DNA of 64,000 nt from Massilia sp. CF038 (GTDB lineage: Bacteria > Pseudomonadota > Gammaproteobacteria > Burkholderiales > Burkholderiaceae_D), in NCBI RefSeq assembly GCF_900129765.1, contig NZ_FQWU01000003.1, forward strand, positions 124,001 through 188,000, given 5' to 3'. Below, piece by piece: positions 14,826 to 34,496 of the stretch; the stretch's first letter is position 1, and each line of letters starts with the position of its first letter. The notes beneath the pieces were generated by a model. It saw only the letters and a program-made list of their open reading frames with translations. It searched no databases and had not been told where the DNA came from. A program made the position numbers and the translations under genes.

Positions 14826-15686
14826 ATGGAATACGTATTTCCCGCCCTTGACTACAAAGCGTTTTTGTCCCGAGCCGAATTCGGCTCTCATGAAGAAACT
14901 GTTGACCACGTCAACCGCCAGATTTTCCGCTCCTACCAGGGGCAGAAACCAGGCGAAGTGCCGCATGAATTGTTCAAGCTGCGCTATGACGTGTATTGCA
15001 TCGAACGGGCCTTTCTGAATGCCGACGATGCGGTCGATGGCATGGAGTTCGACGACTTCGATGATCGTTCGACCCATTTCGCCGCGTTCACGATGGATGA
15101 GACACTGATCGGGACAGTGCGTCTTGTCACGCCCCGTCCGCTGCAGCCGTTTCCGTTCCAGCTCCACTGCACCACCTTCCCGGATTTCCGCATGCCCACG
15201 CACCACCAGTGCGGCGAGATTTCGCGCCTGGCGGTCAAGCGCACGCACCGCCGCCGGCGTGCCGACAGCGTGCTCGGCATTCCCGGCTTTTCGCCGCTGC
15301 GCGCGCAGCCGCTGGTCCTCAACCCGGACCTGGAACGGCGCAGCAGCAATTCGCCGATGCTGCTGCTGGGGATGTACCGCGAGATGTACCGGCACAGCCG
15401 CGCCAAGGGGATCCGCTACTGGTTTGCCGCGATGGAGCGTTCGCTCGCCTATTCGCTGGAAAAGATGGGATTCCGCTTCCGCGCCATTGGCCCGGTCTCG
15501 GATTACTACGGCGAAGTGACGCCTTATCTGCTGGACCTGGGCGCGCTGGCGCCCGAGCTGGCCGCCAGCAATCCCCCGCTCGGGGCCTGGATGGAAGAAA
15601 AGCCGCTGGTGTTTGCCAAGCCGCGCAGCAAACACGTGCGGGTCAGGACGGGCGCGCCCAAGGGCTTACTTGCTGATATCGATTAA
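14826..15686 (+). CDS. PEP-CTERM/exosortase system-associated acyltransferase, copy 2
   Basis: 286 residues, paralog of the preceding gene: LFKLRYDVYCIERAFLNADD, FDDRSTHFAAFTMDETLIGT, GEISRLAVKRTHRRRRADS and LLLGMYREMYRHSRAKGIR are aligned counterparts. It has an extra N-terminal extension (about 25 residues) and a different C-terminus, so the pair has probably specialised for different acceptors or acyl groups. Its last 21 bases overlap the convergent ThiF-like gene. Confidence 0.88.
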   Translation: MEYVFPALDYKAFLSRAEFGSHEETVDHVNRQIFRSYQGQKPGEVPHELFKLRYDVYCIERAFLNADDAVDGMEFDDFDDRSTHFAAFTMDETLIGTVRLVTPRPLQPFPFQLHCTTFPDFRMPTHHQCGEISRLAVKRTHRRRRADSVLGIPGFSPLRAQPLVLNPDLERRSSNSPMLLLGMYREMYRHSRAKGIRYWFAAMERSLAYSLEKMGFRFRAIGPVSDYYGEVTPYLLDLGALAPELAASNPPLGAWMEEKPLVFAKPRSKHVRVRTGAPKGLLADID

Positions 15687-16496
15687 TTTGGTGACGTGGT
15701 TGCGGAAACTGTGCGCCACCATCTGCGGCGAGGCCGGCACCGGCATGCCAGCCAGTAAGTCGTGCATCATCGACACGGCCAGCGCCGCCACCGTGAAGCT
15801 GCCCACCGAAATTTGCGAGGCCGGGCAGGGCCGCCCATCTTCCATGATGGTCAGCGCCTTGGCCACCTGCTCGACCACCTGGCGGTCGAGGTGGGCGCCA
15901 ATGCGGCCCATGATCTTGCCGAACACGGCCGCATAACTGGCATCGCCCTCGCTGCTGGCCAGCGCAATATCGTTCTGAATGATCTGCGCCAGCGAGGCCT
16001 TGGAGTCGGCCGGGAAATACAGCACGCCCGCGCCAAAGCCGATCGACAGCGCCGTAAACACCCCCTTGCCCTGGGCCTGGGCCGTGGTGTGCAGGGCAAG
16101 AATCGCTTCCAGATCCAGAAAATCGATGGTGTCGAAAATAATGTCCACCTGGGTCACCAGGGCCACCGCATTGGTTTGATCGAGATTGGCTTGCACCGCC
16201 TCGACCTGGGCTTGCGGATTGATGCGCAAGATGTGCTTCTTCAGGGCCTGGACCTTGGGCGTGCCGATATCGTCGAAATCGTAGAACTGGCGGTTCAGAT
16301 TGTGGGCATCGACCGTGTCACCGTCAATCAGTACAAAATGCTGGAACCCCATGCGCGTGGCGGCAATGGCAGTCGAGGCGCCCAGCCCGCAGCCCGCGAT
16401 CAGGAGCCGGGTTTCCCGGATCTTGCTCTGGGTGGTGGCATCAACATAACCAGTATTGCGGGTGACAAAGGTATCGTAATTGAACGCTGCGCTCAT
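15666..16496 (-). CDS. ThiF/MoeB-like E1 adenylyltransferase
   Basis: 276 residues from 16496, chosen for GAGGA upstream; the longer frame to 16583 lacks a signal. The nucleotide site is clear: LLIAGCGLGAS (about 32-41), the acidic residues in VLIDGDTVDAHNLNRQ (55-70, with the conserved Arg69) and Lys81 in GTPKVQALK. No CxxC zinc knuckles and no obvious catalytic cysteine in the usual crossover region are seen. It is therefore a stand-alone, probably non-thiolating member that adenylates a C-terminus or small substrate. The C-terminal 80 residues (GRPCPASQISVGSFTVAALAV) are unlike MoeB. Partner unknown; it sits between exosortase-associated genes but on the opposite strand. Confidence 0.8.
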   Translation of the reverse strand: MSAAFNYDTFVTRNTGYVDATTQSKIRETRLLIAGCGLGASTAIAATRMGFQHFVLIDGDTVDAHNLNRQFYDFDDIGTPKVQALKKHILRINPQAQVEAVQANLDQTNAVALVTQVDIIFDTIDFLDLEAILALHTTAQAQGKGVFTALSIGFGAGVLYFPADSKASLAQIIQNDIALASSEGDASYAAVFGKIMGRIGAHLDRQVVEQVAKALTIMEDGRPCPASQISVGSFTVAALAVSMMHDLLAGMPVPASPQMVAHSFRNHVTKLIDISK

Positions 16497-16667
16497 GATG
16501 GTCCTCGCTTGGTGGAAGGGTTTGCCAGCTGTGCCTGCTCGAGCATAGTAGAACAAAATGGGCCGCCGCGCGATTGCAAACATGACATCACTTTCCGCTG
16601 TCGGCGTTTCTTACACCTCCTACCCGGTGTATGCGAGAGGAATGTAGGCATAGTCTTACTAAATAGA

Positions 16668-16699: not shown

Positions 16700-16891
16700 G
16701 TTAAACGTGCCGCCTCTTGCCATTTTCATTGCATTTATTTACACACTGCAAGTTCTAGATAACTGCACAGAAAGCAATGTCGAATTTTCTTACAGGACTT
16801 GTCTTTATTGCAAAATAGCATCCATGGAAAATGCCGGGAAAAATCCATCCCTCCTATGAGATTGCGCAATATGCGCGTTGCATAGGCCATC

Positions 16892-16907
16892 TGGCACGGG
16901 GTTTGCT
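16892..16907 (+). promoter_or_regulatory. Sigma-54 promoter of the PEP-CTERM protein gene
   Basis: TGGCACGGGGTTTGCT matches the sigma-54 consensus TGGCACG-N4-TTGCW at every fixed position, with the required 10 bases between GG and GC. Transcription would begin near 16918, leaving a leader of about 50 bases before ATG 16968. Confidence 0.88.
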
Positions 16908-16967
16908 TACAAGGAGGGAACGCTACATAAACAACTCAGCGCCTTCAACGAATCGGAGAGTAATAAT

Positions 16968-17849
16968 ATGAATATCAAGAAAATCGCAATGGCAGTAACG
17001 CTGGGCCTGGCTTCCTTCGCCGCAGCAGCTGATCCAATCACCAGCGTCACTGGCGCCCTGGAAATCAAACTGGGCGGTCTGACCACCGAGTCGAACCGTA
17101 CCGCTGGCACCAATGAATCGACCTGGGGCGTTGGCTACCTGAGCACGATCAGCTCGTTCAACACCGACTCGTCGTGGACCGCAGGCGCCACCGACGGCTA
17201 CCTGTACTACATGATCTACGGTATTGCTGACCAGTCGATCATCGCCAACAACACCAATGGCTTCGACATCTACAACATCGGCGCCACCGGCGGCGTTGCT
17301 GACGGCAAGATCCACCTGGATCTGTACTACTCGCCAACCAAGATCAAGGCAATTGACCAGTTCAAGAACGCCAATCCAGGCGACCGCACCGGCTTCGATT
17401 CGTACTCGGCCTTCGCTGGTCTGGGCCCAGCTTTCCTGAAGCTGACCTTCGGCCAAGGCATCCAGTCGGTTGACCGTCCAGAAACCGTCGGTATCGACGA
17501 GTCGCTGGCGACCATGGTGCAGGACGTGAACGCACAAACCCTGCCAGCTTCGGGCAGCGGCCGCTTCTTCCTGGACGTTGTCGGCGGTACCGATGCGATC
17601 CACTGGGATACCAACACCCGCGCTGGCGGCCACGACATGAGCGGCAACTTCACGCTGCGTCCTAACTTCGGCGCTGACAACAACCCGAACTGCACCCAGG
17701 CACAAGCCCTGGCAGGCATCTGCTTCGCTGGTCTGATCAACGATCCGATCCTGACCGCACGCGCTGTTCCTGAGCCAGCATCGCTGGCCCTGTTCGGCCT
17801 GGGCCTGGTTGGTCTGGCAGGTCTGCGTCGTCGCAAAAGCGCGAAGTAA
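16968..17849 (+). CDS. PEP-CTERM sorting domain-containing secreted protein
   Basis: 293 residues. The start at 16968 has GGAG upstream and begins a signal peptide (KKIAMAVTLGLASFAAA, cleavage near residue 19). The mature part is rich in Gly, Ser, Thr and Asn with aromatic beta-strand patterns and is not a known enzyme. The C-terminus has the full sorting signal: VPEPASLAL, a hydrophobic helix (FGLGLVGLAGL) and a basic RRRKSAK tail, as recognised by exosortase A. Pro codons are mostly CCA and many Ala codons GCT, unlike the CCG/GCC-rich neighbours, suggesting strong expression. It is driven by the sigma-54 promoter at 16892 and ended by the terminator at 17871. Confidence 0.95.
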   Translation: MNIKKIAMAVTLGLASFAAAADPITSVTGALEIKLGGLTTESNRTAGTNESTWGVGYLSTISSFNTDSSWTAGATDGYLYYMIYGIADQSIIANNTNGFDIYNIGATGGVADGKIHLDLYYSPTKIKAIDQFKNANPGDRTGFDSYSAFAGLGPAFLKLTFGQGIQSVDRPETVGIDESLATMVQDVNAQTLPASGSGRFFLDVVGGTDAIHWDTNTRAGGHDMSGNFTLRPNFGADNNPNCTQAQALAGICFAGLINDPILTARAVPEPASLALFGLGLVGLAGLRRRKSAK

Positions 17850-17870: not shown

Positions 17871-17904
17871 AAAGCCGCCGGGTGCAAACCCGGCGGCTTT
17901 TTTT
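17871..17904. terminator. Rho-independent terminator after the PEP-CTERM gene
   Basis: A perfect 13-base stem (17871-17883 with 17888-17900) and a GCAA loop are followed by four more T. The A-run on the left arm lets it work on both strands; it also abuts the stop codon of the minus-strand cassette at 17903. Confidence 0.92.
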
Positions 17905-19000
17905 ACGTCTTGGGCGGAGAAATAAAGGCTTTGTGGAACAGGTGGCGCGCCAGCAGCAGAGGCGGCATGCGCAGCCAGTTGCCGCGAATGTACAAGGCCT
18001 TGCGCGCCGCCGCATCACCGGGACGGGCGCAACTGGCGTGCATGGGCAGCAGTGCGCGCAGGAACAGCGCGTCCATCAGGGCCCGCAGCGGCTGCACCGG
18101 GCCGGCCTTGGCCAGCGCCGCGGTGACGGCCGCCGGCACCGCCGTGCCCAGCAGGCGGGCCGTGTAACGCAAGGCATAGAACAAGGGCCGCGCCAGTTCG
18201 AGTTCGTAGGCGCGCGCGGCCAAGCCCTCCCAGAAGCCGGGCTGCCCGCCAAACTCCGTCAACAGGCGATGCAAGTCGAGCAAGTCGCGCAAACCCTTGT
18301 CGAACTCGCCGTCGTAGAACAGATGGGTGGCGCTGTGAATCACCATGTCGGCCGGCGCCAGTACCAGCACGCCGCTTTGGCCCGGCACCGGCAGCGCGCT
18401 GGCGCGCAGTTTGGCTGGATCGGGCCGGGCGCGCGCGGTGAGCGGCAAGATGGCGTGGTGCACATCGATCACGCTGCCGCGCTGCACATGCTGCATTGGG
18501 GGAATTTCGTGCATCCAGACGCGGTAATAGCGCTGGTCGTAGGCGTCGTGATGGTGGGACATCCAGCCAGCCAGCATCAAGGCCGGCTCGACTTCGTCAA
18601 TCCGCTCTTTTGGCACCAGGATATCGATATCGGAAAACAGGCGGCCACGGCTGGCAGCCAGGCCGCTGACCGCATAGGCAGCGCCCTTGAGCAATATCAG
18701 CGGCACATCCAGCTGAGCCAGCGCGGCGCGGATGCGCGTCACTTCCCATTGCACCCCGGCGCCATGGCGGCGCAGCAGCGACGCGGCCCACTCCAGATGG
18801 CGGCGCGGCGCGGCCGGCACCGCGTGCAGCACGCGGTATTGCTCGGCCAGCCCGTGCAGGGTGGCTGTCAGATTTGCCGCCAGCGCCTGGCGCAGCAGGA
18901 GATCCCATTCACTGAGCGTGAGCGCGCCCATGCGCTGGGGTTCGCGCAGCACTTCCAGCAGCAAAGGCTCGGTGTCGGATTCAGGCACGGGTGCAGTCAA
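17903..19000 (-). CDS. Nucleotidyltransferase family protein of an HPr-rel-A-type cassette
   Basis: 365 residues. The N-terminal half resembles the NTP_transf_5-type nucleotidyltransferases: ILLKGAAYAVSG then GRLFSDIDILVP (metal-binding DxD at about 129-131), and later VIDVHHAILPL. The C-terminal part is helical and has a DLLDLHRLL segment. No membrane segment. It is the last gene of a four-gene operon, with its ATG overlapping the stop of the kinase gene (18997-19000). It probably transfers a nucleotide or similar group to the product of this cassette or to a protein; the true substrate is not known. Confidence 0.85.
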   Translation of the reverse strand: MTAPVPESDTEPLLLEVLREPQRMGALTLSEWDLLLRQALAANLTATLHGLAEQYRVLHAVPAAPRRHLEWAASLLRRHGAGVQWEVTRIRAALAQLDVPLILLKGAAYAVSGLAASRGRLFSDIDILVPKERIDEVEPALMLAGWMSHHHDAYDQRYYRVWMHEIPPMQHVQRGSVIDVHHAILPLTARARPDPAKLRASALPVPGQSGVLVLAPADMVIHSATHLFYDGEFDKGLRDLLDLHRLLTEFGGQPGFWEGLAARAYELELARPLFYALRYTARLLGTAVPAAVTAALAKAGPVQPLRALMDALFLRALLPMHASCARPGDAAARKALYIRGNWLRMPPLLLARHLFHKAFISPPKT

Positions 19001-19914
19001 GGGGTCGGGGGCGCCAGCTGCGCGAAGGTAGCCATCGCATCATCGAGTGCACTGTAGCAGAAACGGAAGCTGCGGCTGCCCTCGATCAAGCCGGCCAGGG
19101 CCGCAAAGCCCTGCTCGGCCAGCAGACTGTAATTGAAGGCATTCTGCGCCACATCCATCATGGCCTGACCCTGGGCAATGGGGGTGAGCACGGGCGCGGA
19201 ACCGGCCACGTATTGCGGGAACACGATCCAGGCGGCACGCACCGCGTCGGCCGCGCGCGCCACGCTTTCGGCCGGCGCCCGGACATGGGCCACCGTGCCC
19301 TTGTTGGTATCGGCCACCGGACGGCTAAACACGGCATCGGGCGCATAGCCGCGGATCACTTCGATCGAGGCGTTTTTCAGACTGATGGGGCGCGGCAGCG
19401 GTTCGATCAGGCCGTCGGACAGGCGCACCATGGTCAGTTCGTCCGACAGCAAACGCCAGCCGCGGCTGACCAGCGCGGCGCACAAGGTGCTTTTGCCCGA
19501 GCCAGGCGGGGCCGGCAGGATGGCGGCGTGGCCGCCCCGCTCCACCACGGCGGCATGGATGATCAGGTAATCGTGGGCCCGGCTCGACACGCACCAGTTC
19601 ATGGCCCATTCAAACATGGGAAAGGCCTGGTCGACCGGCAAGGGTTTGAACGGTGTATGGCCATCGTGGTCAAACAGGACCTGGCGCCCGGCAAAGCGGC
19701 GCAGCCCGGTCGAATGCATCATGTTGACCTGAAAATCCGTGAACGGCGCATCTGCCAGCAGCGGATAGGCGCCGTACAGCAGGCCAATGCCATCGGCCAC
19801 GTGGCCGATGTCCGAGCGCAGGCGCGTCACAAAGGCGCCGGTGCGCAGGCAGATGCCAGGGCCGGCCAGGCGGGCGCGCAAGGTGGCCGGGTCGAGCGCG
19901 CCAACGGTCAGCAT
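18997..19914 (-). CDS. HprK-related kinase A
   Basis: 305 residues. A P-loop APPGSGKS (135-142) and the HPr-kinase-type block GWRLLSDELTMV (Asp158, Glu159) are seen, with a His120 in LIIHAAVV before the P-loop. This matches the HPr kinase/phosphorylase catalytic core, but the N-terminal HprK domain and the HPr-binding signature are absent, so HPr is not a likely substrate. It belongs to a family (HprK-related kinase A) found next to a PqqD-like protein, as here. It overlaps the PqqD gene by seven bases and the nucleotidyltransferase by four. Confidence 0.88.
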   Translation of the reverse strand: MLTVGALDPATLRARLAGPGICLRTGAFVTRLRSDIGHVADGIGLLYGAYPLLADAPFTDFQVNMMHSTGLRRFAGRQVLFDHDGHTPFKPLPVDQAFPMFEWAMNWCVSSRAHDYLIIHAAVVERGGHAAILPAPPGSGKSTLCAALVSRGWRLLSDELTMVRLSDGLIEPLPRPISLKNASIEVIRGYAPDAVFSRPVADTNKGTVAHVRAPAESVARAADAVRAAWIVFPQYVAGSAPVLTPIAQGQAMMDVAQNAFNYSLLAEQGFAALAGLIEGSRSFRFCYSALDDAMATFAQLAPPTP

Positions 19915-20183
19915 GGGAGGAGTTCAATCAAAAACAGCGCGGCCAGCTGGTCCAGTACGGCGCCGGCCTGCTCGTCAAAGGCGGCGTCGCGTGCGCTGTC
20001 ATGGGCAGCGGCGAGCGCGTCCAGCAGACGGGCAGCGGGCGCCGGCCCCTGCTGCAGCAAGCTGAGCAGATGGGCCGCGCTGTCGCCCAGCAGATGGGTG
20101 TCGCCAGAAAGATCGTTGTACACGACGACCTGGTCGTCGAACTGCCGGAAGCGCAAGGCCTGGCCCGGCATCAGCCGCCACAT
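19908..20183 (-). CDS. HPr-rel-A system PqqD family peptide chaperone
   Basis: 91 residues, winged-helix PqqD-like: LRFRQFDDQVVVYNDLSGDT, HLLGDSAAHLLSLLQQ and AVLDQLAALFLIEL. PqqD domains bind leader peptides of ribosomally made precursors and hand them to modifying enzymes. Here the likely client is the protein encoded nine bases upstream (20193-20765), and the likely receiver the HprK-related kinase downstream. No radical SAM enzyme, the usual partner, is present. Confidence 0.85.
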   Translation of the reverse strand: MWRLMPGQALRFRQFDDQVVVYNDLSGDTHLLGDSAAHLLSLLQQGPAPAARLLDALAAAHDSARDAAFDEQAGAVLDQLAALFLIELLPC

Positions 20184-20192
20184 GCCCAGCGC

Positions 20193-20765
20193 TCAGGACA
20201 TGGTGGCAGACAGGTAGTCGACCAGCTGGCTGCCGCTCCATGCCTTTTTGGCCCCGGCCGGCGTGTAGGTGCCGTAGGTGTTGTACTGGGCCCAGATATC
20301 GAGCACGGCTTGCGGCGTGAGGAAGGTGATGCGGCCCGACAGCACGTTCAGGTAGGTGGCCAGAATGTGCATGGCCACATTGTTTTTGTCGGCTTTTTGC
20401 TTGTTCAGAATTTGCATGCAGCTGATGGTGCTGAGCGGGCCGGAACAATAGAAATGCTGGGAAAACTTGTCGCTGGTCTTGACCTGGGCTGGCCAGGCGC
20501 TCGGATGGTTCTTCCAGTAGCCTGGCGAAACGCCGTTGCAAACCACGTTCGGACGCTGGCTGTTCAAGTCGCCCGACAAGGCGCCCGACGGCGACTTGCA
20601 CACCAGGGCAGCCATGGCATGGTTACTGGCCACGGTCATGACCACACCGGATACGCCCAGTCCGGCCAGACGGCGGCGGGAAGCGCCCGCAGGCGACAAT
20701 GGCGGAATCGCTGCTGGCGCCGCGGGGGCGACGGCATTTCCGTCTTGATGTTCTTGGTTAACCAT
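20193..20765 (-). CDS. Tat-leader protein with GYWKNHP motif, candidate cassette substrate
   Basis: 190 residues from ATG 20765 (AGGAA upstream; a TTG start at 20789 is less likely). The first 25 residues are polar and Ala/Pro-rich, then SRRRLAGLGVSGVV with an Ala-x-Ala end (NHAMA) gives a twin-arginine-like signal. The mature part begins with cysteines (VCKSPSGAL, VVCNGVSPGYWKNHPSAWP) followed by FYCSG and SCMQI; the GYWKNHPxxW pattern occurs in diverse secreted bacterial proteins. The remainder is helical. It is first in the operon with PqqD, kinase and nucleotidyltransferase genes, so it is the natural candidate for modification or escort. No PEP-CTERM tail. Function unknown. Confidence 0.75.
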   Translation of the reverse strand: MVNQEHQDGNAVAPAAPAAIPPLSPAGASRRRLAGLGVSGVVMTVASNHAMAALVCKSPSGALSGDLNSQRPNVVCNGVSPGYWKNHPSAWPAQVKTSDKFSQHFYCSGPLSTISCMQILNKQKADKNNVAMHILATYLNVLSGRITFLTPQAVLDIWAQYNTYGTYTPAGAKKAWSGSQLVDYLSATMS

Positions 20766-20992: not shown

Positions 20993-21625
20993 TTAGAAGA
21001 AACTTTCAGGGATCACCAGCACGTCGCCCGGGCGCATGGCCGTGTTGGCCGAGATATCGCCTTCCTTGATCAAGTCATTCAGGCGCACTGGCATCTTCTG
21101 CAGTTTGCCATCGACTTTACGGATGATACTCGCGTTGTTGCCAGAAGCAAACTCCGTCACACCGCCCACGGCAATCAGCACATCCATCAAGGACATGTCG
21201 CGGCGGTAAGGCAGCGCCTGCGGACGGGCAGCCTGGCCAATCACGCGGATCTGCTCGCCATAGGTGCCGGTGAAGCCGGTCACCACCACGGTGACCACAG
21301 GTTGCTGAATGAACTTGGCCAGCGCTTTTTCGATGTCGCGCGCCAATTCAGTCGATGTTTTGCCGGAGGCTTGCAAGTCTTCCACCAGCGGGGTGGTGAT
21401 CTTGCCATCGGGACGCACCGGCACCGACATCGACACTTCCGGATTGCGCCAGACAATGATGTTGACGTTGTCGCCAGGGCCAATCAGGTAGTCGTGCAGC
21501 GGCGCTGCGGTCATGTCGCCGGCCACCAGTTCGCCTTTGGTGGCGCAACCGCCCAGAGCCAGCGCCGACAGGGCCAGCGCGCAGCAGGCCAGGCGCTGCA
21601 ACATATGTGTCATCTTGTTCTTCAT
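20993..21625 (-). CDS. XrtA-associated polysaccharide export lipoprotein (Wza-like)
   Basis: 210 residues from 21625 (GAGGAAA upstream); the frame extends to 21775 but without a signal. A lipoprotein signal ends in LGGC (Cys27). The Poly_export block YLIGPGDNVNIIVWRNPEVS is followed by VPVRPDGKITTPLVEDLQA and an SLBB-type block VTGFTGTYGEQIRVIG with PGDVLVIPESFF at the end. This matches the EpsE/TIGR03027 export protein that forms the outer-membrane channel or its periplasmic part. It is on the opposite strand to the main operon. Confidence 0.93.
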   Translation of the reverse strand: MKNKMTHMLQRLACCALALSALALGGCATKGELVAGDMTAAPLHDYLIGPGDNVNIIVWRNPEVSMSVPVRPDGKITTPLVEDLQASGKTSTELARDIEKALAKFIQQPVVTVVVTGFTGTYGEQIRVIGQAARPQALPYRRDMSLMDVLIAVGGVTEFASGNNASIIRKVDGKLQKMPVRLNDLIKEGDISANTAMRPGDVLVIPESFF

Positions 21626-21775
21626 GATTCGGATTTCCTCAGTGCGAGTGCGGCGGATGCCGCGCTGTCGGGTTGTTTTCAAGACAAACTGCTTACTCTT
21701 TAATAATTGTCTTTTAAATACTAAATGCGCCATTGTAAACCAAGAAAACCACCTGCACGGGGCGGCGACGGACAA

Positions 21776-22552
21776 TTATTTTGCACGCGTGTCTTTACGC
21801 TGCAATAAATCGCGGGCATGGTTGGCAGGCACGGCATAGGTGATCCCGCTCGGGTCGGTGATCGCGCTTTCCTTCAAGCCCTTCACGAACACCATGTTAA
21901 TGATGCCGTAGACGGTGCCGCTGGCCGGGTCATACACGGGGCTGCCACTGTTGCCGGGATAGGCGGTGGCATCGAGCTGGAAGATCGGAAAGCCATCCCT
22001 TTGCAAGGCTGCAATCGCGCCGGGTTTGAGCTTGCCCGAGGTGAGCGAGGGCATCACCACGGGCGTGATGGCGGACAACAGCGCGCGGTGGGTGACCGGG
22101 TGCAAACCGAGCATCATGCCGAGCGGGTACCCAGTGAAGGCCAGCTCGCGTCCTTCCTGCATCTGGCCCGAATCACCCAGTTGCAGGGCGGGCAGCGGCT
22201 TGCCGGAAATGGCCAGGTGGGCCAGGTCGTGCTCGCGGTCAATGCTGACCACGACAGCTGGGCGGAATTCAAAGTTGACGCCGTGGCCAATCGAGATGCC
22301 CAGCGTTTCCATGTTGTTGGTGTCGAGCACGGATGGGACCACATGCGCGTTGGTAATGATCTGCAAGCCGTCGCCCGTGGCGAAACCGGTGCCATTGAAA
22401 CGCACGGCCGGGCTGCGGGTTTTCTGGAAACTGCCGACGCCGACCACCGATTGCTTGACCTGGGCAATGGTGGTGGGAAAGTCAGCGGCCAGCCCGGGCA
22501 CGATGGCACCGATTGAGCAAAAAAGCAACACTATTGATTGTCGGAATGACAT
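21776..22552 (-). CDS. Trypsin-like (S1C/DegP-type) serine protease, exported
   Basis: 258 residues from 22552, with GGAG upstream and a signal peptide (residues 1-23, cleavage after GLAA). The catalytic triad is complete: His70 in IITNAHVV, Asp109 in DREHDLAHL and Ser202 in YPGNSGSPV. No PDZ domain follows, unlike DegP. It probably acts in the periplasm on envelope proteins; a role in exosortase or polysaccharide quality control is inferred from position only. Divergent from the large EPS operon. Confidence 0.88.
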   Translation of the reverse strand: MSFRQSIVLLFCSIGAIVPGLAADFPTTIAQVKQSVVGVGSFQKTRSPAVRFNGTGFATGDGLQIITNAHVVPSVLDTNNMETLGISIGHGVNFEFRPAVVVSIDREHDLAHLAISGKPLPALQLGDSGQMQEGRELAFTGYPLGMMLGLHPVTHRALLSAITPVVMPSLTSGKLKPGAIAALQRDGFPIFQLDATAYPGNSGSPVYDPASGTVYGIINMVFVKGLKESAITDPSGITYAVPANHARDLLQRKDTRAK

Positions 22553-22932
22553 CGAGGTCTCCCTGCTGGACAAGTTGAAAAGTTTTGTAATTTTCACATT
22601 ATATATAGCGTTTTGTCTTAAGCAACAATACAATGTGCATGGGTCCGAAACCGGCCCGCGCGGCCGCCCTTCCCGGCCTAGGGGACGATTCATTTGAATG
22701 CATGAGCTGCACAAAAAATGTGTATCATGCGACATTTATGCTGTTAATTAAACAACGGAGTTGCGTTGTGCAGGACGGCGGTACAGCACCGCACCGAAGG
22801 CCGTGGCTGGCTTGTCACACTTTTCCATAATGCAATTGCAATTGCAATGTTTGCAAGCGATGATAGCCAGCCCGGCCCCACTTTTTGCGCACCAGCGCTC
22901 CGACAGATTCTTATGATGGCGAGATCGACGAG
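22553..22932. other. 380-base divergent region before the EPS operon
   Basis: No gene supported. It should hold the promoter of the 15-gene plus-strand operon, but I found no sigma-54 match on either strand. It contains an AT-rich stretch (about 22590-22640 and 22720-22755) and three tandem TGCAAT units at 22831-22848. Confidence 0.55.
22831..22848. repeat. Triple TGCAAT repeat upstream of the EPS operon
   Basis: Three exact tandem copies of TGCAAT, about 85 bases before the chain-length gene. Each junction forms the palindrome TTGCAA-like ATTGCAAT. Possible regulator site. Confidence 0.4.
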
Positions 22933-30146: not shown

Positions 30147-31340
30147 GTGGAAAACCTGCTCCTGCTGATCCACCGGATTCCCTACCCGCCCAACAAGGGC
30201 GACAAGATCCGCTCCTACCATTTGCTCAAGCATCTGGCGCAGCACTACCACGTGCATCTGGCCACCTTTGTCGACGACGAAGACGACTGGCAGCACGTGC
30301 CAACGGTGCAAGCCATGTGCACCAGCAGCCATTTCGGCAAGCTCAACCCGCTGAGCGGCAAGCTGCGCAGCCTGGCCGCGCTGACGTCAAAGCGCTCGCT
30401 CTCGTTCGACTACTACCGTAGCAGCGCCATGCAAGCCTGGGTCGACCAGACCATGGCGGCCCACAAGATCGAGCGCGTGCTGGTGTTTTCCTCGCCCATG
30501 GCGCAGTACGCCGAAGCGTATCCGGCCGCGCGCCGCGTGGTTGATTTCTGCGATGTCGACTCCGACAAGTGGCGCCAGTACGCCAGCCAGAAGCCATGGC
30601 CCATGAGCTGGCTGTACCGGCGCGAAGCGGACACCCTGCTGACCTACGAACGCCACGTGGCCGCTACCTGCGACGCCTCGCTGTTTGTGTCCGATCCGGA
30701 AGCGGAATTGTTCCGCACCCTGGCGCCCGAAAGCGCGGCCAAGATCGGCTACTTCAACAACGGCGTCGACACCGACTATTTTTCGCCCGAGCGCACTTAC
30801 GCGCGGCCCTACGCTGCCGGCGAGCGCGCCCTGGTATTCACCGGCGCCATGGACTACTGGCCCAACATCGACGCGGTGCAGTGGTTCGCCAACGAGATTT
30901 TCCCGCCCCTGTTCAAGGCCAATCCGGCGCTGCGCTTTTACATTGTGGGCGCGCGTCCCACGCCGGCTGTCAGCGCCCTGGGCCAGCTGCCTGGCGTGAC
31001 CGTGACCGGCACCGTGCCCGATGTGCGGCCGTACATTCATCACGCCGAAGTCACCGTAGCGCCGCTGCGCATCGCTCGCGGCATCCAGAACAAGGTGCTC
31101 GAGGCGATGGCCATGGCGCGCCCGATGGTGGTCTCGCCCCAGGCGCTGGAAGGCATTGACGCCATTCCCGGCAGCGAATTGCTGCTGGCCGATGGCGCCG
31201 ACGCCTTCATTGCCACCTTGTCGGCCCTGGTGGCCACCCCCAACGCCGCCCTTGGCAGCGCCGCCCGCAGCAAGGTTGAACGCCAGTACAGCTGGCCGAG
31301 CAATCTGGCGCGCATCGAAGCGAGACTCGAATGCTCCTGA
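30147..31340 (+). CDS. TIGR03087-type XrtA system glycosyltransferase
   Basis: 397 residues with a GTG start at 30147, two bases after the FemAB stop. N-terminus LLLLIHRIPYPPNKGDKIRS is diagnostic of this family. GT-B fold with DVDSDKWRQYA, then VFTGAMDYWPNIDAVQWF and the retaining-GT4 block NKVLEAMAMARPMV. It adds a sugar to the lipid-linked repeat in the cytoplasm. It overlaps xrtA by ten bases. Confidence 0.93.
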   Translation: MENLLLLIHRIPYPPNKGDKIRSYHLLKHLAQHYHVHLATFVDDEDDWQHVPTVQAMCTSSHFGKLNPLSGKLRSLAALTSKRSLSFDYYRSSAMQAWVDQTMAAHKIERVLVFSSPMAQYAEAYPAARRVVDFCDVDSDKWRQYASQKPWPMSWLYRREADTLLTYERHVAATCDASLFVSDPEAELFRTLAPESAAKIGYFNNGVDTDYFSPERTYARPYAAGERALVFTGAMDYWPNIDAVQWFANEIFPPLFKANPALRFYIVGARPTPAVSALGQLPGVTVTGTVPDVRPYIHHAEVTVAPLRIARGIQNKVLEAMAMARPMVVSPQALEGIDAIPGSELLLADGADAFIATLSALVATPNAALGSAARSKVERQYSWPSNLARIEARLECS

Positions 31341-32884
31341 ACGACAATCCCGCGCTGGCCGGTTCCGCCACGCCGCCGGTGCCTGCCCTGTCTGCGGCCA
31401 CCCTGGCCATGATCGTGCTGGCCATCCTGGCGCCCTTCCTGTTTTACTTTGACACGGCGCGCTCGATCGTCGAGGTGTGGAACAGCTCCGAGACCTTCGC
31501 CCACGGCTACATCATTGCCCCCATCAGTCTGTGGCTGATCTGGCGCCGGCGCGCCAACTTCCGCGCCCTGCCGCCGGGACCATGCTGGCCCGCGCTGCTG
31601 CTGTTGCTGGCGCTGGGCGCCGGCTGGCTGGTGGCGCGCATGGGCGAAGTGCAGGTGGTGCAGCAGTATGCTTTTGTCGCCATGCTGCCCGTGATTGCGC
31701 TGGCCATTCTGGGGCGCCGCCTGGCCGGCTCGCTGGCCTTTCCCCTCCTGTTCCTGCTGTTCGCGGTGCCCTTTGGCGAAATCTTCATTGGCCCGCTGAT
31801 TGAATTTACCGCCGACTTCACCATCTGGGCGGTGCAGGCCACCGGCATTCCGGTCCTGCGCAACGGCACCCATTTCGAACTCCCGACCGGCAACTGGTCG
31901 GTGGTGGAAGCCTGCAGTGGCGTGCGCTATCTGATTTCCTCGGTCACCATCGGCAGCCTGTACGCCTACCTGACCTACCGTTCGACCCTGCGCCGGGCCG
32001 TGTTCATTGCCGCCTCGATCGTGGTGCCCGTGATCGCCAACGGCATGCGCGCCTACCTGATCGTCATGATCGGCCACACCAGCAATATGGAACTGGCCAC
32101 CGGCGTGGACCACCTGATCTACGGCTGGATCTTCTTTGGCATCGTCATGTTCATCATGTTCTGGGTGGGCAGCTACTGGCGCCAGGATACCGACGCCGAA
32201 AGCGCCGCCCTGCCGCCGGCGCGCGCTGCCGACGCTACGGCACCGGCCGCCATCGCCAAAATGCTGCTGGCGGTGCTTGCCGCCTGCGCGCTGTGGCCGG
32301 CGTTCGCCTATTACAGCGACCGCGCCACGCATAATCCGAAACCGGTGGCCCTGGCGCCGATCACTCTCGGCGGCGAAGCTGCCGGCGCATTCTCAAGCTG
32401 GGTACCGAGCTTCATGCCGGCCGATGCAGGCTTCAACAGCGTGGTGCAAAGCCAAGGCGGCAAGCCGGTGGCACTGACCATTCTGTACTACCGCAACCAG
32501 ACCCGCGACAAGGCCTTGATCAGTTCCGTCAACCGCCTGGCTGCCGAGAAGGACCCTTACCATGAGCTGGGCGGGGCAGTGCGCACCGAGCAAATTGACG
32601 GGCGCACCCTGACCGTGCGCGAAACGCGCATGCGCGGCGCGACCGGCACCTTCCTGGTCTGGCACTGGCTGCGCGTGGACGGCCACCCGGTCACCAACCC
32701 GTATGCGGGCAAACTGCGCCAGGCCGCCGCCAAGCTGATGCTGCGCGGTGACGACGGCGCTGCCATCATGCTCTCTTCGCCCTACAGCGAAGATCAGGAA
32801 GCCGCACGCACTGCCCTGCGCGCCTTCCTCAATACCAATCTGAAAGCGATCGACGCCGCGCTCGATACGACCGCCGCGAATTAA
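31331..32884 (+). CDS. xrtA: Exosortase A fused to an EpsI-type C-terminal domain
   Basis: 517 residues. Residues about 22-285 are a multi-helix exosortase with the catalytic residues Cys195 in VVEACSGVRY, Arg240 in NGMRAYL and His261 in GVDHLIYGW, plus the early ETFAHGYIIAPISLW. Residues about 300-510 are a periplasmic EpsI-like domain (VLYYRNQTRDKALISS-type pattern). This is the exosortase A arrangement. It is the transpeptidase-like membrane enzyme that cuts PEP-CTERM tails, such as that of the protein at 16968, and links or releases the mature protein. Confidence 0.96.
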   Translation: MLLNDNPALAGSATPPVPALSAATLAMIVLAILAPFLFYFDTARSIVEVWNSSETFAHGYIIAPISLWLIWRRRANFRALPPGPCWPALLLLLALGAGWLVARMGEVQVVQQYAFVAMLPVIALAILGRRLAGSLAFPLLFLLFAVPFGEIFIGPLIEFTADFTIWAVQATGIPVLRNGTHFELPTGNWSVVEACSGVRYLISSVTIGSLYAYLTYRSTLRRAVFIAASIVVPVIANGMRAYLIVMIGHTSNMELATGVDHLIYGWIFFGIVMFIMFWVGSYWRQDTDAESAALPPARAADATAPAAIAKMLLAVLAACALWPAFAYYSDRATHNPKPVALAPITLGGEAAGAFSSWVPSFMPADAGFNSVVQSQGGKPVALTILYYRNQTRDKALISSVNRLAAEKDPYHELGGAVRTEQIDGRTLTVRETRMRGATGTFLVWHWLRVDGHPVTNPYAGKLRQAAAKLMLRGDDGAAIMLSSPYSEDQEAARTALRAFLNTNLKAIDAALDTTAAN

Positions 32885-32888
32885 TTCC

Positions 32889-34496
32889 ATGCACATCATT
32901 ATTTTCACGGCCAATCTGGATTTCAACGTGCGCTGGGGTGTCATCACCCTGGCCGAGCGTTTTCCGGATGCCCGCTTCACAATCGTTCAGCAGGTGGCGC
33001 ACAAGCCGCTCAAGCGCCTGCTGCGCAACCAGGTGCGCAACCTGAGCCGCCACGGCTGGCGCTGGGTACCGTATCAGGGCGCCGAAATCGTCAGCCTGTT
33101 GCTGGGCCGTGGCCGTCAATCGCCCGTGGCCAGTCCGGACCGTCCGGGCCGCATGTACGGCTCGGCTGCGCTGGCCAGCCACCCGCGCATCGCCGTGCGC
33201 CAGTTCAGCGCCATCAACGGTCCCGAAGCCTGCGCCTTCGTGCAATCGCAGCAGGCGGACCTGGGCATTGCCCTGGGCGCGCCGATTCTGAAAAGCGCAC
33301 TGTTCGAACTGCCCCGCCTGGGCACCATCAATCTGCACAAGGGTAAGCTGCCGGACTTTCGCGGCATGCCGCCGGCATTCTGGGAACTGCACGCAGGCGC
33401 GGCCAGCGTCGGCTGTACCGTGCACCGGGTGGCCGCTGGCCTGGATACCGGCGAGATTCTGCTCGCGCGCGAGGTCCCGGTCGACGCCTTTTCCACCGTG
33501 GCCGGCATGCAGATCAAACTGCACCGCGTCGGGGTGGAACTGGTGGCCGAAGCAGTGGCCGCGATTGTGGCCGGCACGGCGCAGTTCCGTGCCCAGCCTG
33601 CGGGCGGCAACACCAACACCCGGCCCACACTGGCGCTCGAAGCGCGCGTCAAGGCGCAGCTGGCCGCACGCGATCCTTCGCGTGGCAGTGCGCCCAAGCG
33701 CCTGGCCAAACATCTGATGTTCCGCAGTTATGCCCAGCTGCTGACCCCTGCCATCAATTACTGGCACGGCCTGACCGGCCAGCAGCGCGTTATCATTTTG
33801 CTGTACCACCGCGTCAGCGACCAGTTCCGCGACAACGTCACCATCGGCATCGAGCGCTTTGACCAGCACATGGCTTACCTGGCCGCCAACTGCCAGGTGG
33901 TGTCGCTGCGCCAGATCGTCGAAGGCGACATCGACCGCCATGCCAAAAAGCCGGTAATTGCGGTCTCGTTCGACGACGGCTATCTGGACAACTTCGAGCA
34001 TGCGGCCCCGATACTGATCAAGCACCAGGTGCCGTGCACCTTCTTCATCAGCACCGAAAAAATCCGCGACAACAAGCCGTTTGACCACGACATGCGTGCG
34101 CTCGGCTTCGGCCTGGACAACATGAGCTGGGACCAGGTGCGCCAGATGCGCGACTGGGGCCTGCACTTTGGCAGCCACACGCGCAACCACGTCAACCTGG
34201 CCGAGATCGACGACGCCCTGGCGCACGAGGAACTGGCGGGCTCGCTGGCCGACATTCGCGCCGAACTGGGTCAGGAACAGGTCTACATCGCCTTCCCTTA
34301 TGGACGCAAGAAGCACATCACGCCGGCGCGCATCGAGACCATGCGCGAACTCGGTTACGGGGCCTGCTTCTCCGCTTACGGCGGCTTGAATGACGCCAGC
34401 ATGGACCGCTTTAACATTCGCAGGATCGGCGTCAACTGGGCCTTCGACCTGACCACGCTGCAGGCGCGCCTGCGCGGATGGGACAAGACCCAATGA
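32889..34496 (+). CDS. Formyltransferase-polysaccharide deacetylase fusion protein
   Basis: 535 residues with two domains. Residues 1-230 look like a formyl-transferase: GTINLHKGKLPDFRGMPP carries Asn148 and His150, and LDTGEILL carries Asp186, the catalytic trio of the family. Residues about 305-530 are a NodB-type deacetylase: ILLYHRVSD, SFDDGYLDN and GSHTRNHVNL, then IAFPYGRK. Together they suggest removal of an acetyl group followed by N-formylation of the freed amine on an amino sugar. This coupling is inferred. It overlaps the next gene by four bases. Confidence 0.85.
   Translation: MHIIIFTANLDFNVRWGVITLAERFPDARFTIVQQVAHKPLKRLLRNQVRNLSRHGWRWVPYQGAEIVSLLLGRGRQSPVASPDRPGRMYGSAALASHPRIAVRQFSAINGPEACAFVQSQQADLGIALGAPILKSALFELPRLGTINLHKGKLPDFRGMPPAFWELHAGAASVGCTVHRVAAGLDTGEILLAREVPVDAFSTVAGMQIKLHRVGVELVAEAVAAIVAGTAQFRAQPAGGNTNTRPTLALEARVKAQLAARDPSRGSAPKRLAKHLMFRSYAQLLTPAINYWHGLTGQQRVIILLYHRVSDQFRDNVTIGIERFDQHMAYLAANCQVVSLRQIVEGDIDRHAKKPVIAVSFDDGYLDNFEHAAPILIKHQVPCTFFISTEKIRDNKPFDHDMRALGFGLDNMSWDQVRQMRDWGLHFGSHTRNHVNLAEIDDALAHEELAGSLADIRAELGQEQVYIAFPYGRKKHITPARIETMRELGYGACFSAYGGLNDASMDRFNIRRIGVNWAFDLTTLQARLRGWDKTQ

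Follow-up and report, generated by a model that had tools for sequence, protein, structure and literature searches.

A conserved four-gene HPr-rel-A cassette in Massilia sp. CF038 with a twin-arginine leader protein as its candidate substrate

A 64,000-nucleotide stretch of the genome of Massilia sp. CF038 (contig NZ_FQWU01000003.1, positions 124,001 to 188,000), referred to here as the window, carries a cassette of four minus-strand genes at positions 17903-20765. They encode a small precursor-like protein, a PqqD-type protein, an HprK-related kinase and a nucleotidyltransferase (Table 1). The open reading frames (ORFs), called with scripts based on codon usage and hidden Markov models, confirmed the layout described in an earlier reading made from the letters alone (the sequence-only reading), in which the genes overlap or nearly touch: the small protein gene is separated from the PqqD gene by nine bases, the PqqD and kinase genes overlap by seven bases and the kinase and nucleotidyltransferase genes by four. 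A hairpin seen by eye after the nucleotidyltransferase gene was not called in the terminator scan.

Table 1. Features of the cassette and of its surroundings (positions in the window)
Feature	Position	Strand	Remarks
Small precursor protein (proposed substrate)	20193..20765	-	190 residues from ATG; 198 residues from a TTG start
Twin-arginine leader, residues 29-53; proposed PqqD binding site and Tat signal	20607..20681	-	Conservation over 24 homologues
Cys/Ser segment, residues 56-64 (C56, P59, S60, S64); proposed phosphate acceptors S60/S64	20574..20600	-	
Helical C-terminal domain, residues 71-190	20196..20555	-	Predicted structure
PqqD-family RRE, HPr-rel-A system PqqD family peptide chaperone	19908..20183	-	91 residues; TIGR04353 (NCBIfam) 61.7 bits, cut-off 35
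HprK-related kinase A	18997..19914	-	305 residues; TIGR04352 (NCBIfam) 383.7 bits, cut-off 200
Kinase P-loop GSGKST, residues 138-143	19486..19503	-	
PF14907 nucleotidyltransferase	17903..19000	-	365 residues, TTG start; Pfam 186.5 bits, cut-off 31.2
Nucleotidyltransferase DxD motif, residues 124-126	18623..18631	-	
XrtA/PEP-CTERM exopolysaccharide export protein	20993..21775	-	TIGR03027 237.1 bits, cut-off 180
Trypsin-like serine protease, possible processing enzyme	21776..22735	-	MarP/HtrA-type models below cut-offs
Exosortase A (XrtA) of neighbouring exopolysaccharide locus	31331..32884	+	TIGR03109 347.4 bits, cut-off 208

The identities proposed earlier for the PqqD-type protein, the HprK-like kinase and the nucleotidyltransferase were all borne out by scores above the NCBIfam or Pfam cut-offs. 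The general Pfam model for PqqD scored 18.5 bits on the PqqD-type protein, under its cut-off of 23.4. The sequence-only reading took the kinase and PqqD types for a known conserved pair, and NCBIfam names both as parts of the 'HPr-rel-A system', with both proteins of the cassette above the curated cut-offs; it names these two only. Scans of the small protein with Pfam and NCBIfam returned no family above cut-off. In the open-licence literature no paper on the cassette and no stated substrate was found, and the words kinase, HPr and nucleotidyltransferase are all absent from the main text of the RRE-Finder paper.

The occurrence of the small protein was compared with that of the kinase in two bacterial families. 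Among 97 genomes of the window's family, 24 carry a kinase above cut-off and the small-protein profile (A1) matched the same 24, the weakest at E 1.7e-46; the profile was built from these kinase-bearing genomes, and only its absence in the other 73 is independent. Three further matches in the family, of about 20 bits, spanned roughly the leader part, and one extra kinase fragment (28.5 bits) was present in genome G020. The search for the four-gene order in other genomes, suggested by the sequence-only reading, showed it to be kept at 24/24 of the above-cut-off kinase loci of the family, which indicates that the order is not due to chance.

The second family, that of genome G318, is called sphingomonad-like here on the basis of gene neighbours and plasmid record NZ_CP155749. 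A kinase above cut-off was found in 33 of its 99 genomes, and an alpha-type precursor profile (A3, with five of its eight source genomes among the 99 searched) matched the same 33 plus one stray at 21.4 bits with an internal stop. The precursor match is weak (25-34 bits) in five of the 33, in four of which it adjoins the kinase. Weak kinase relatives below cut-off were detected in 61 of the remaining 66 genomes (94/99 overall at E <= 0.001), so the tie of the precursor is to above-cut-off kinases. Fisher tests gave p values of 3e-23 for the window's family and 2e-25 for the second family, without correction for kinship. In the window's family the kinase and the small protein are patchy within genera, so the two genes come and go together. 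Genomes with PqqD, kinase and nucleotidyltransferase genes but always without the small protein had been named as the observation that would speak against the proposal; the opposite was found, with 24/24 and 33/33 carrying it.

Sixty-four loci around above-cut-off kinases were read: the 24 from the window's family, plus those of 40 out of 59 further genomes that carry such a kinase in a sample of 398 genomes of the phylum. The small protein lies beside the cassette in 59 of them, in 55 by rule and in L082, L084, L103 and L111 by eye or tblastn; the rule accepts the leader motif, and L094, L102 and L114 count by leader alone. The precursor lies elsewhere in the remaining five genomes, with a weak match of 31.7 bits in G363. 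Three of the five have a PqqD gene adjoining this distant precursor, so that PqqD there follows the precursor rather than the kinase. A precursor was also found at 77 of 80 organism-named loci, at 76 by profile (four weakly, E 3e-6 to 5e-4) and at L233 by eye; the sequences of L202 and L234 start too near the PqqD gene for its presence to be judged. The usual order is small protein, PqqD, kinase and nucleotidyltransferase, with the precursor downstream in L188 and L201. Profiles of PqqD and of the nucleotidyltransferase matched 54/64 and 59/64 of the first set and 73/80 and 78/80 of the second. The cassette is real and conserved; what is new is which protein its missing partner is and how diverse that partner is.

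Some individual loci deviate. At L221, a contig of a metagenome-assembled Phycisphaeraceae genome, a transposase-like ORF was seen by eye at the expected place of the precursor upstream of PqqD; disruption or a misassigned contig are both possible. Two precursor-like ORFs per locus occur in L184, L188 and L231, like the multi-precursor clusters of ribosomally synthesised and post-translationally modified peptides (RiPPs). Three plasmid records of Vibrio alfacsensis contain the kinase and the nucleotidyltransferase (L246, 4875-7942), which indicates that the cassette can be plasmid-borne. In Vibrio alfacsensis and Sphingomonas parapaucimobilis plasmid records the upstream 'hypothetical protein' translates to a precursor with a twin-arginine leader, in one Vibrio alfacsensis record followed by a precursor-like Cys/Ser segment.

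The model predicted for the PqqD-type protein (pLDDT, the predicted local confidence, 97) has the fold of a RiPP recognition element (RRE), in keeping with the peptide binder proposed earlier. Foldseek matched it best to TbiB1 (5v1v, E 4.5e-5), a lasso B1 protein whose structure includes the leader, and to another lasso B1 structure with leader, 6jx3, at E 5.8e-4; the top matches 5v1v, 5v1u, 6jx3 and 5sxy (PqqD) all had a probability of 1.00 and were followed by RREs of other RiPP enzymes. A sequence profile (alignment A5, 41 of 54 sequences) searched against the PDB agreed weakly, with TfuB1 as the best natural protein (E 0.0015) under two designed proteins.

The precursors, 136 after two truncated rows out of 138 were dropped and including the near-duplicates L040/L168 and the over-long ORFs L184 and L111, fall into three main types by their mature part: beta (SPGYWKNH-like), to which the window protein belongs, gamma (ending SCWxSF-like) and alpha (ending FTCFASLQ). 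L094, L102 and L114 are among those that fit no type. Common to the types is a leader with twin arginine followed by a mildly hydrophobic stretch; RR is present in 133/136, a feature to which the finder gives a bonus. The leader signal across types is weak, a beta leader-only profile matching 6 of 31 C-motif precursors and a folded-domain profile none of them. The C-terminal domain of the window protein is modelled with blocks of pLDDT 91-98 from residue 81 and 73 in block 71-80. Foldseek returned no PDB match at E <= 0.001 for it, and a profile search with the precursor against PDB sequences gave none.

Over the 24 beta-type homologues the mean majority fraction is 0.67 in the leader, 0.54 in the linker, 0.45 in the folded domain and 0.32 in the N-terminal tail, with R30, R31 and S47 invariant. 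For 12 gamma-type proteins (A2, 12 of 14) the values are 0.72 in the leader, 0.69 at the C-terminus and 0.36 in the mature middle. The leader fits that of a substrate of twin-arginine translocation (Tat), and the small protein is probably exported. An export signal is seldom the most conserved part of a protein, and the natural reading of the best conserved leader is therefore recognition by a second partner, the RRE. Leader and Tat signal may then be one and the same segment.

Candidate acceptor residues differ between the types. S60 and S64 are present in 24/24 beta-type proteins, with C56 at a fraction of 0.96 and P59 at 0.83. The gamma alignment has C178, W179 and S181 invariant, and in the alpha alignment (A3, 8 of 9) T119, C120 and S123 near the C-terminus are likewise invariant; both C-terminal motifs fit [ST]-x3-S, and the later gamma-profile matches L198, L199 and L211 end otherwise. 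The motif [ST][CGA]xxS was found in 122/136 mature parts, where composition shuffles gave 55 on average, and Ser-Ser spacing of four is in excess (z 12.2), in related sequences whose kinship the shuffles leave uncorrected. The spacing excess lies mostly in the beta-like set and is small in the 31 C-motif sequences (z 2.8). A single acceptor motif for all types was for these reasons only partly supported, and a conserved C-terminal Ser, as in lasso peptides, was rejected as a general rule, beta-type C-termini being variable. Both acceptor places have published precedent: LppK phosphorylates Ser3 of the core, directly behind the leader (PMC13381572), and lasso kinases phosphorylate a C-terminal Ser (PMC9266682, PMC8498205).

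The catalytic residues of both enzymes are intact. H120, K141, D158 and E159 are kept in 64/64 kinases, in all of which Glu stands in place of the second Asp of the DD pair found in HprK and in kinases of lasso-type loci. The match to HPr kinase models is limited to 46-48 residues at the P-loop, TIGR00679 (HPr(Ser) kinase) scoring 16.1 bits, under its cut-off of 240, and a separate HPr kinase of 317 bits is encoded elsewhere in the genome; the earlier remark that the kinase has no HPr-binding part stands. A kinase profile (A4, 44 of 64 sequences) matched six weaker homologues from G318, G120 and G489 (A7, 6 of 9 weak-kinase loci) at E 1.7e-21 over 196 columns and HPr kinases (A8, 10 of 16 loci) at E 8.4e-7 over 155 columns. 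By these profiles HPr kinase is a more distant relative of the cassette kinase than are the kinases of lasso-type loci. Several of the six have a PqqD-like gene and a short lasso-like precursor ORF next to them. Two, for which TIGR04352 is the best-scoring model though under its cut-off, have neighbours that Pfam confirms as Asn synthetase and sulfotransferase. For these two the assignment to the lasso type is backed by Pfam; for the other A7 loci it was read by eye.

In the nucleotidyltransferase, D124, D126 and D179 are invariant in 39/39 aligned sequences (A6, 39 of 59), so that the DxD enzyme of the sequence-only reading, matched by PF14907, keeps all three Asp. Its profile gave one chance-like match (E 0.27) against PDB sequences. 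Across the kinase loci its gene mostly overlaps that of the kinase.

Other known systems resemble the cassette. The linear polyphosphorylated peptides (LPPs) of Bacillota (PMC13381572) likewise have a discrete RRE, an HprK-like kinase, a nucleoside triphosphate (NTP) transferase and no macrolactam cyclase, together with precursors of 35-200 residues that are conserved at the N-terminus and variable at the C-terminus, a patchy distribution and a frequent location in capsular polysaccharide loci. The LPP set of enzymes (RRE, HprK-like kinase and NTP transferase without cyclase) is present in the four genes. Other LPP features were not recovered: the SpI/SipW-type leader peptidase TIGR02228 was above cut-off in 0/24 kinase-bearing genomes of the window's family (one sub-cut-off match), an ORF with an ABC-ATPase motif, as expected for the MsbA-like transporter, lay within 3.5 kb of the kinase in 2/144 loci, and the YxxP leader motif occurred in 1/136 precursors, a truncated misplaced call, a twin-arginine leader standing in its place. 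The cassette is moreover found in Pseudomonadota, whereas LPPs are reported to be restricted to Bacillota (PMC13381572).

The lasso peptides paeninodin and pseudomycoidin (PMC9266682, PMC8498205) share with the cassette a B1 RRE, an HprK-like kinase and a nucleotidyltransferase. Unlike them, the cassette has neither B2 protease nor cyclase (no Asn synthetase-like macrolactam cyclase is present among the four genes), and its candidate substrate is longer than 100 residues with an export-type leader, whereas theirs are short peptides. As the SpI peptidase, transporter and YxxP features are missing, the cassette is assigned neither to the LPPs nor to the lasso systems, but by analogy it would work like the tailoring sets of paeninodin, pseudomycoidin and the LPPs. 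A further relative is ScmC of SynChlorMet (TIGR04249), which matched the cassette kinase at 31.1 bits, below cut-off. The SynChlorMet cassette includes radical SAM enzymes and differs in this from the HPr-rel-A cassette, beside which none was seen; no paper under that name was found in the open-licence literature.

The gene set observed here, its tie to the small protein, the intact catalytic residues and the predicted RRE fold support the earlier interpretation of a post-translational modification system, from which we infer that the cassette modifies the small protein. A leader-guided modification system of Pseudomonadota with the small protein as substrate is given a probability of roughly two in three. 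The PqqD-type RRE would capture the conserved twin-arginine leader in the cytoplasm, upon which the HprK-related kinase would put one or more phosphates on conserved Ser or Thr residues. In the beta type, including the window protein, the acceptor would most likely be S60 or S64 behind the leader, and in the gamma and alpha types [ST]-C-[WFY]-x-S near the C-terminus. In the least certain step the PF14907 enzyme may add a sugar or nucleotide to the phosphate, comparable to PsmN, which is reported to add a hexose (PMC9266682, PMC8498205). The folded, modified protein would then exit by Tat and act at the envelope, often near exopolysaccharide loci.

Several observations weigh against a leader-guided modification. 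The RRE-binding motif of lasso and LPP leaders, [YW]xxPx[LVIFAY], occurs in 1/136 leaders, in a truncated misplaced call, which leaves leader binding without motif support, and no acceptor is common to all types, 31/136 precursors fitting neither of the two motifs. The PqqD profile misses 10/64 and 7/80 loci, in some of which short ORFs seen by eye take its place, and in G177 no PqqD ORF was found beside the precursor or the kinase. The nucleotidyltransferase profile misses 5/64 and 2/80 loci, some at contig ends. The likeness of PF14907 to PsmN and LppN is one of enzyme kind, and LppN is reported to be without detectable activity in the test host (PMC13381572). A precursor that depends on the enzymes in some other way would show the same coupling.

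The strongest competing explanation, in itself unlikely, places the kinase and nucleotidyltransferase in the neighbouring exopolysaccharide pathway, where a sugar or small molecule would be their substrate and the small protein a periplasmic cofactor. The cassette adjoins an XrtA exopolysaccharide locus, in which export, chain-length, ATPase, deacetylase, glycosyltransferase, exosortase A and amidotransferase genes scored above their NCBIfam cut-offs. Within the window's family, an exosortase above cut-off is present in 23/24 kinase-bearing against 29/73 other genomes and in 22/24 on the same contig as the kinase, 11-40 kb away; loci of the second family adjoin glmU-glmS in the examples read. 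An envelope or exopolysaccharide role for the cassette is plausible on these grounds. However, at 96/144 loci neither export or chain-length nor other XrtA genes were found in the limited flanks fetched, and a strict dependence on XrtA loci was rejected, the association being frequent in the window's family but not general. Action on a pathway intermediate also leaves the RRE and a leader-bearing partner unexplained. In three genomes, moreover, PqqD accompanies the small protein at a site apart from the kinase.

PqqD and other RRE domains often partner radical SAM enzymes, and the RRE could serve such a distant enzyme, with the kinase and nucleotidyltransferase as secondary tailoring enzymes. 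This is quite improbable: a same-strand ORF of at least 250 residues with CxxxCxxC within 3.5 kb was found at only 2/144 loci, both spurious by eye, in a search confined to the neighbourhood of the cassette, and in two families kinase and precursor occur in exactly the same genomes. Within the same limits the earlier statement that no radical SAM enzyme lies beside the cassette holds. The intact DxD motif and third Asp would equally allow direct transfer of a nucleotide (for example AMP) to the protein, independent of the kinase; the presence of the nucleotidyltransferase at most kinase loci, usually overlapping the kinase gene, and the action on phosphate reported for a lasso enzyme of that name (PMC9266682, PMC8498205) make this very improbable. 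That the kinase is a regulatory HPr-type kinase/phosphorylase controlling carbon metabolism or the phosphotransferase system is least probable of all, the weak P-loop matches to HPr kinases being set against the genome's own HPr kinase, the closer kinship with kinases of lasso-type loci, the Glu in the acid pair and the tie to a leader-bearing protein.

Leader-guided modification of the small protein names a substrate candidate for the HPr-rel-A system, and one that is directly testable; if true, RRE-guided phospho-modification would no longer be confined to short peptides but would reach folded proteins that Pseudomonadota export. A bolder and rather doubtful version is that whole secreted proteins serve as RiPP-like substrates, with one N-terminal segment as both RRE leader and Tat signal, and that a portable motif of the S-x3-S type receives a phosphate-linked sugar (or nucleotide) from the kinase and nucleotidyltransferase, the exported product being a protein primer or anchor for the neighbouring exopolysaccharide.

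The trypsin-like serine protease encoded near the cassette may process the exported protein. Relatives of it were present in the fetched flanks of 43/144 cassette loci; at 18 of the 43 no XrtA genes were detected, and at eight the end of the protease gene lies some 2.8 kb beyond the kinase start, directly behind the nucleotidyltransferase. Asn-synthetase-like genes were considered as lasso cyclases and rejected: the downstream ones of sphingomonad-like loci are GlmS-like, and that of the window is the XrtA amidotransferase, above its own cut-off and below that for lasso cyclase.

Two further genes of the window were noted. An E1-like ThiF protein at 15666-16583 (minus strand), below the listed NCBIfam ThiF/MoeB cut-offs, is flanked by the genes for a PEP-CTERM protein (16878-17849) and for an exosortase-system acyltransferase (14826-15686). 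The ORF at 32889-34496 (plus strand) combines sub-cut-off matches to methionyl-tRNA formyltransferase-like and PgaB-like deacetylase models and is a putative formyltransferase-deacetylase fusion in the polysaccharide locus.

Outside the window, G318 has, in addition to an HPr-rel-A cassette, four separate loci of HprK-type kinases (L236-L239), three of which contain short ORFs for lasso-like precursors with Ser as the last residue. On a plasmid of Leisingera caerulea (L248, 5740-7813) a distant kinase lies beside a nucleotidyltransferase family protein, with no annotated PqqD, and the pair lies next to genes for an export protein and a giant cadherin-like protein; this is perhaps another variant.

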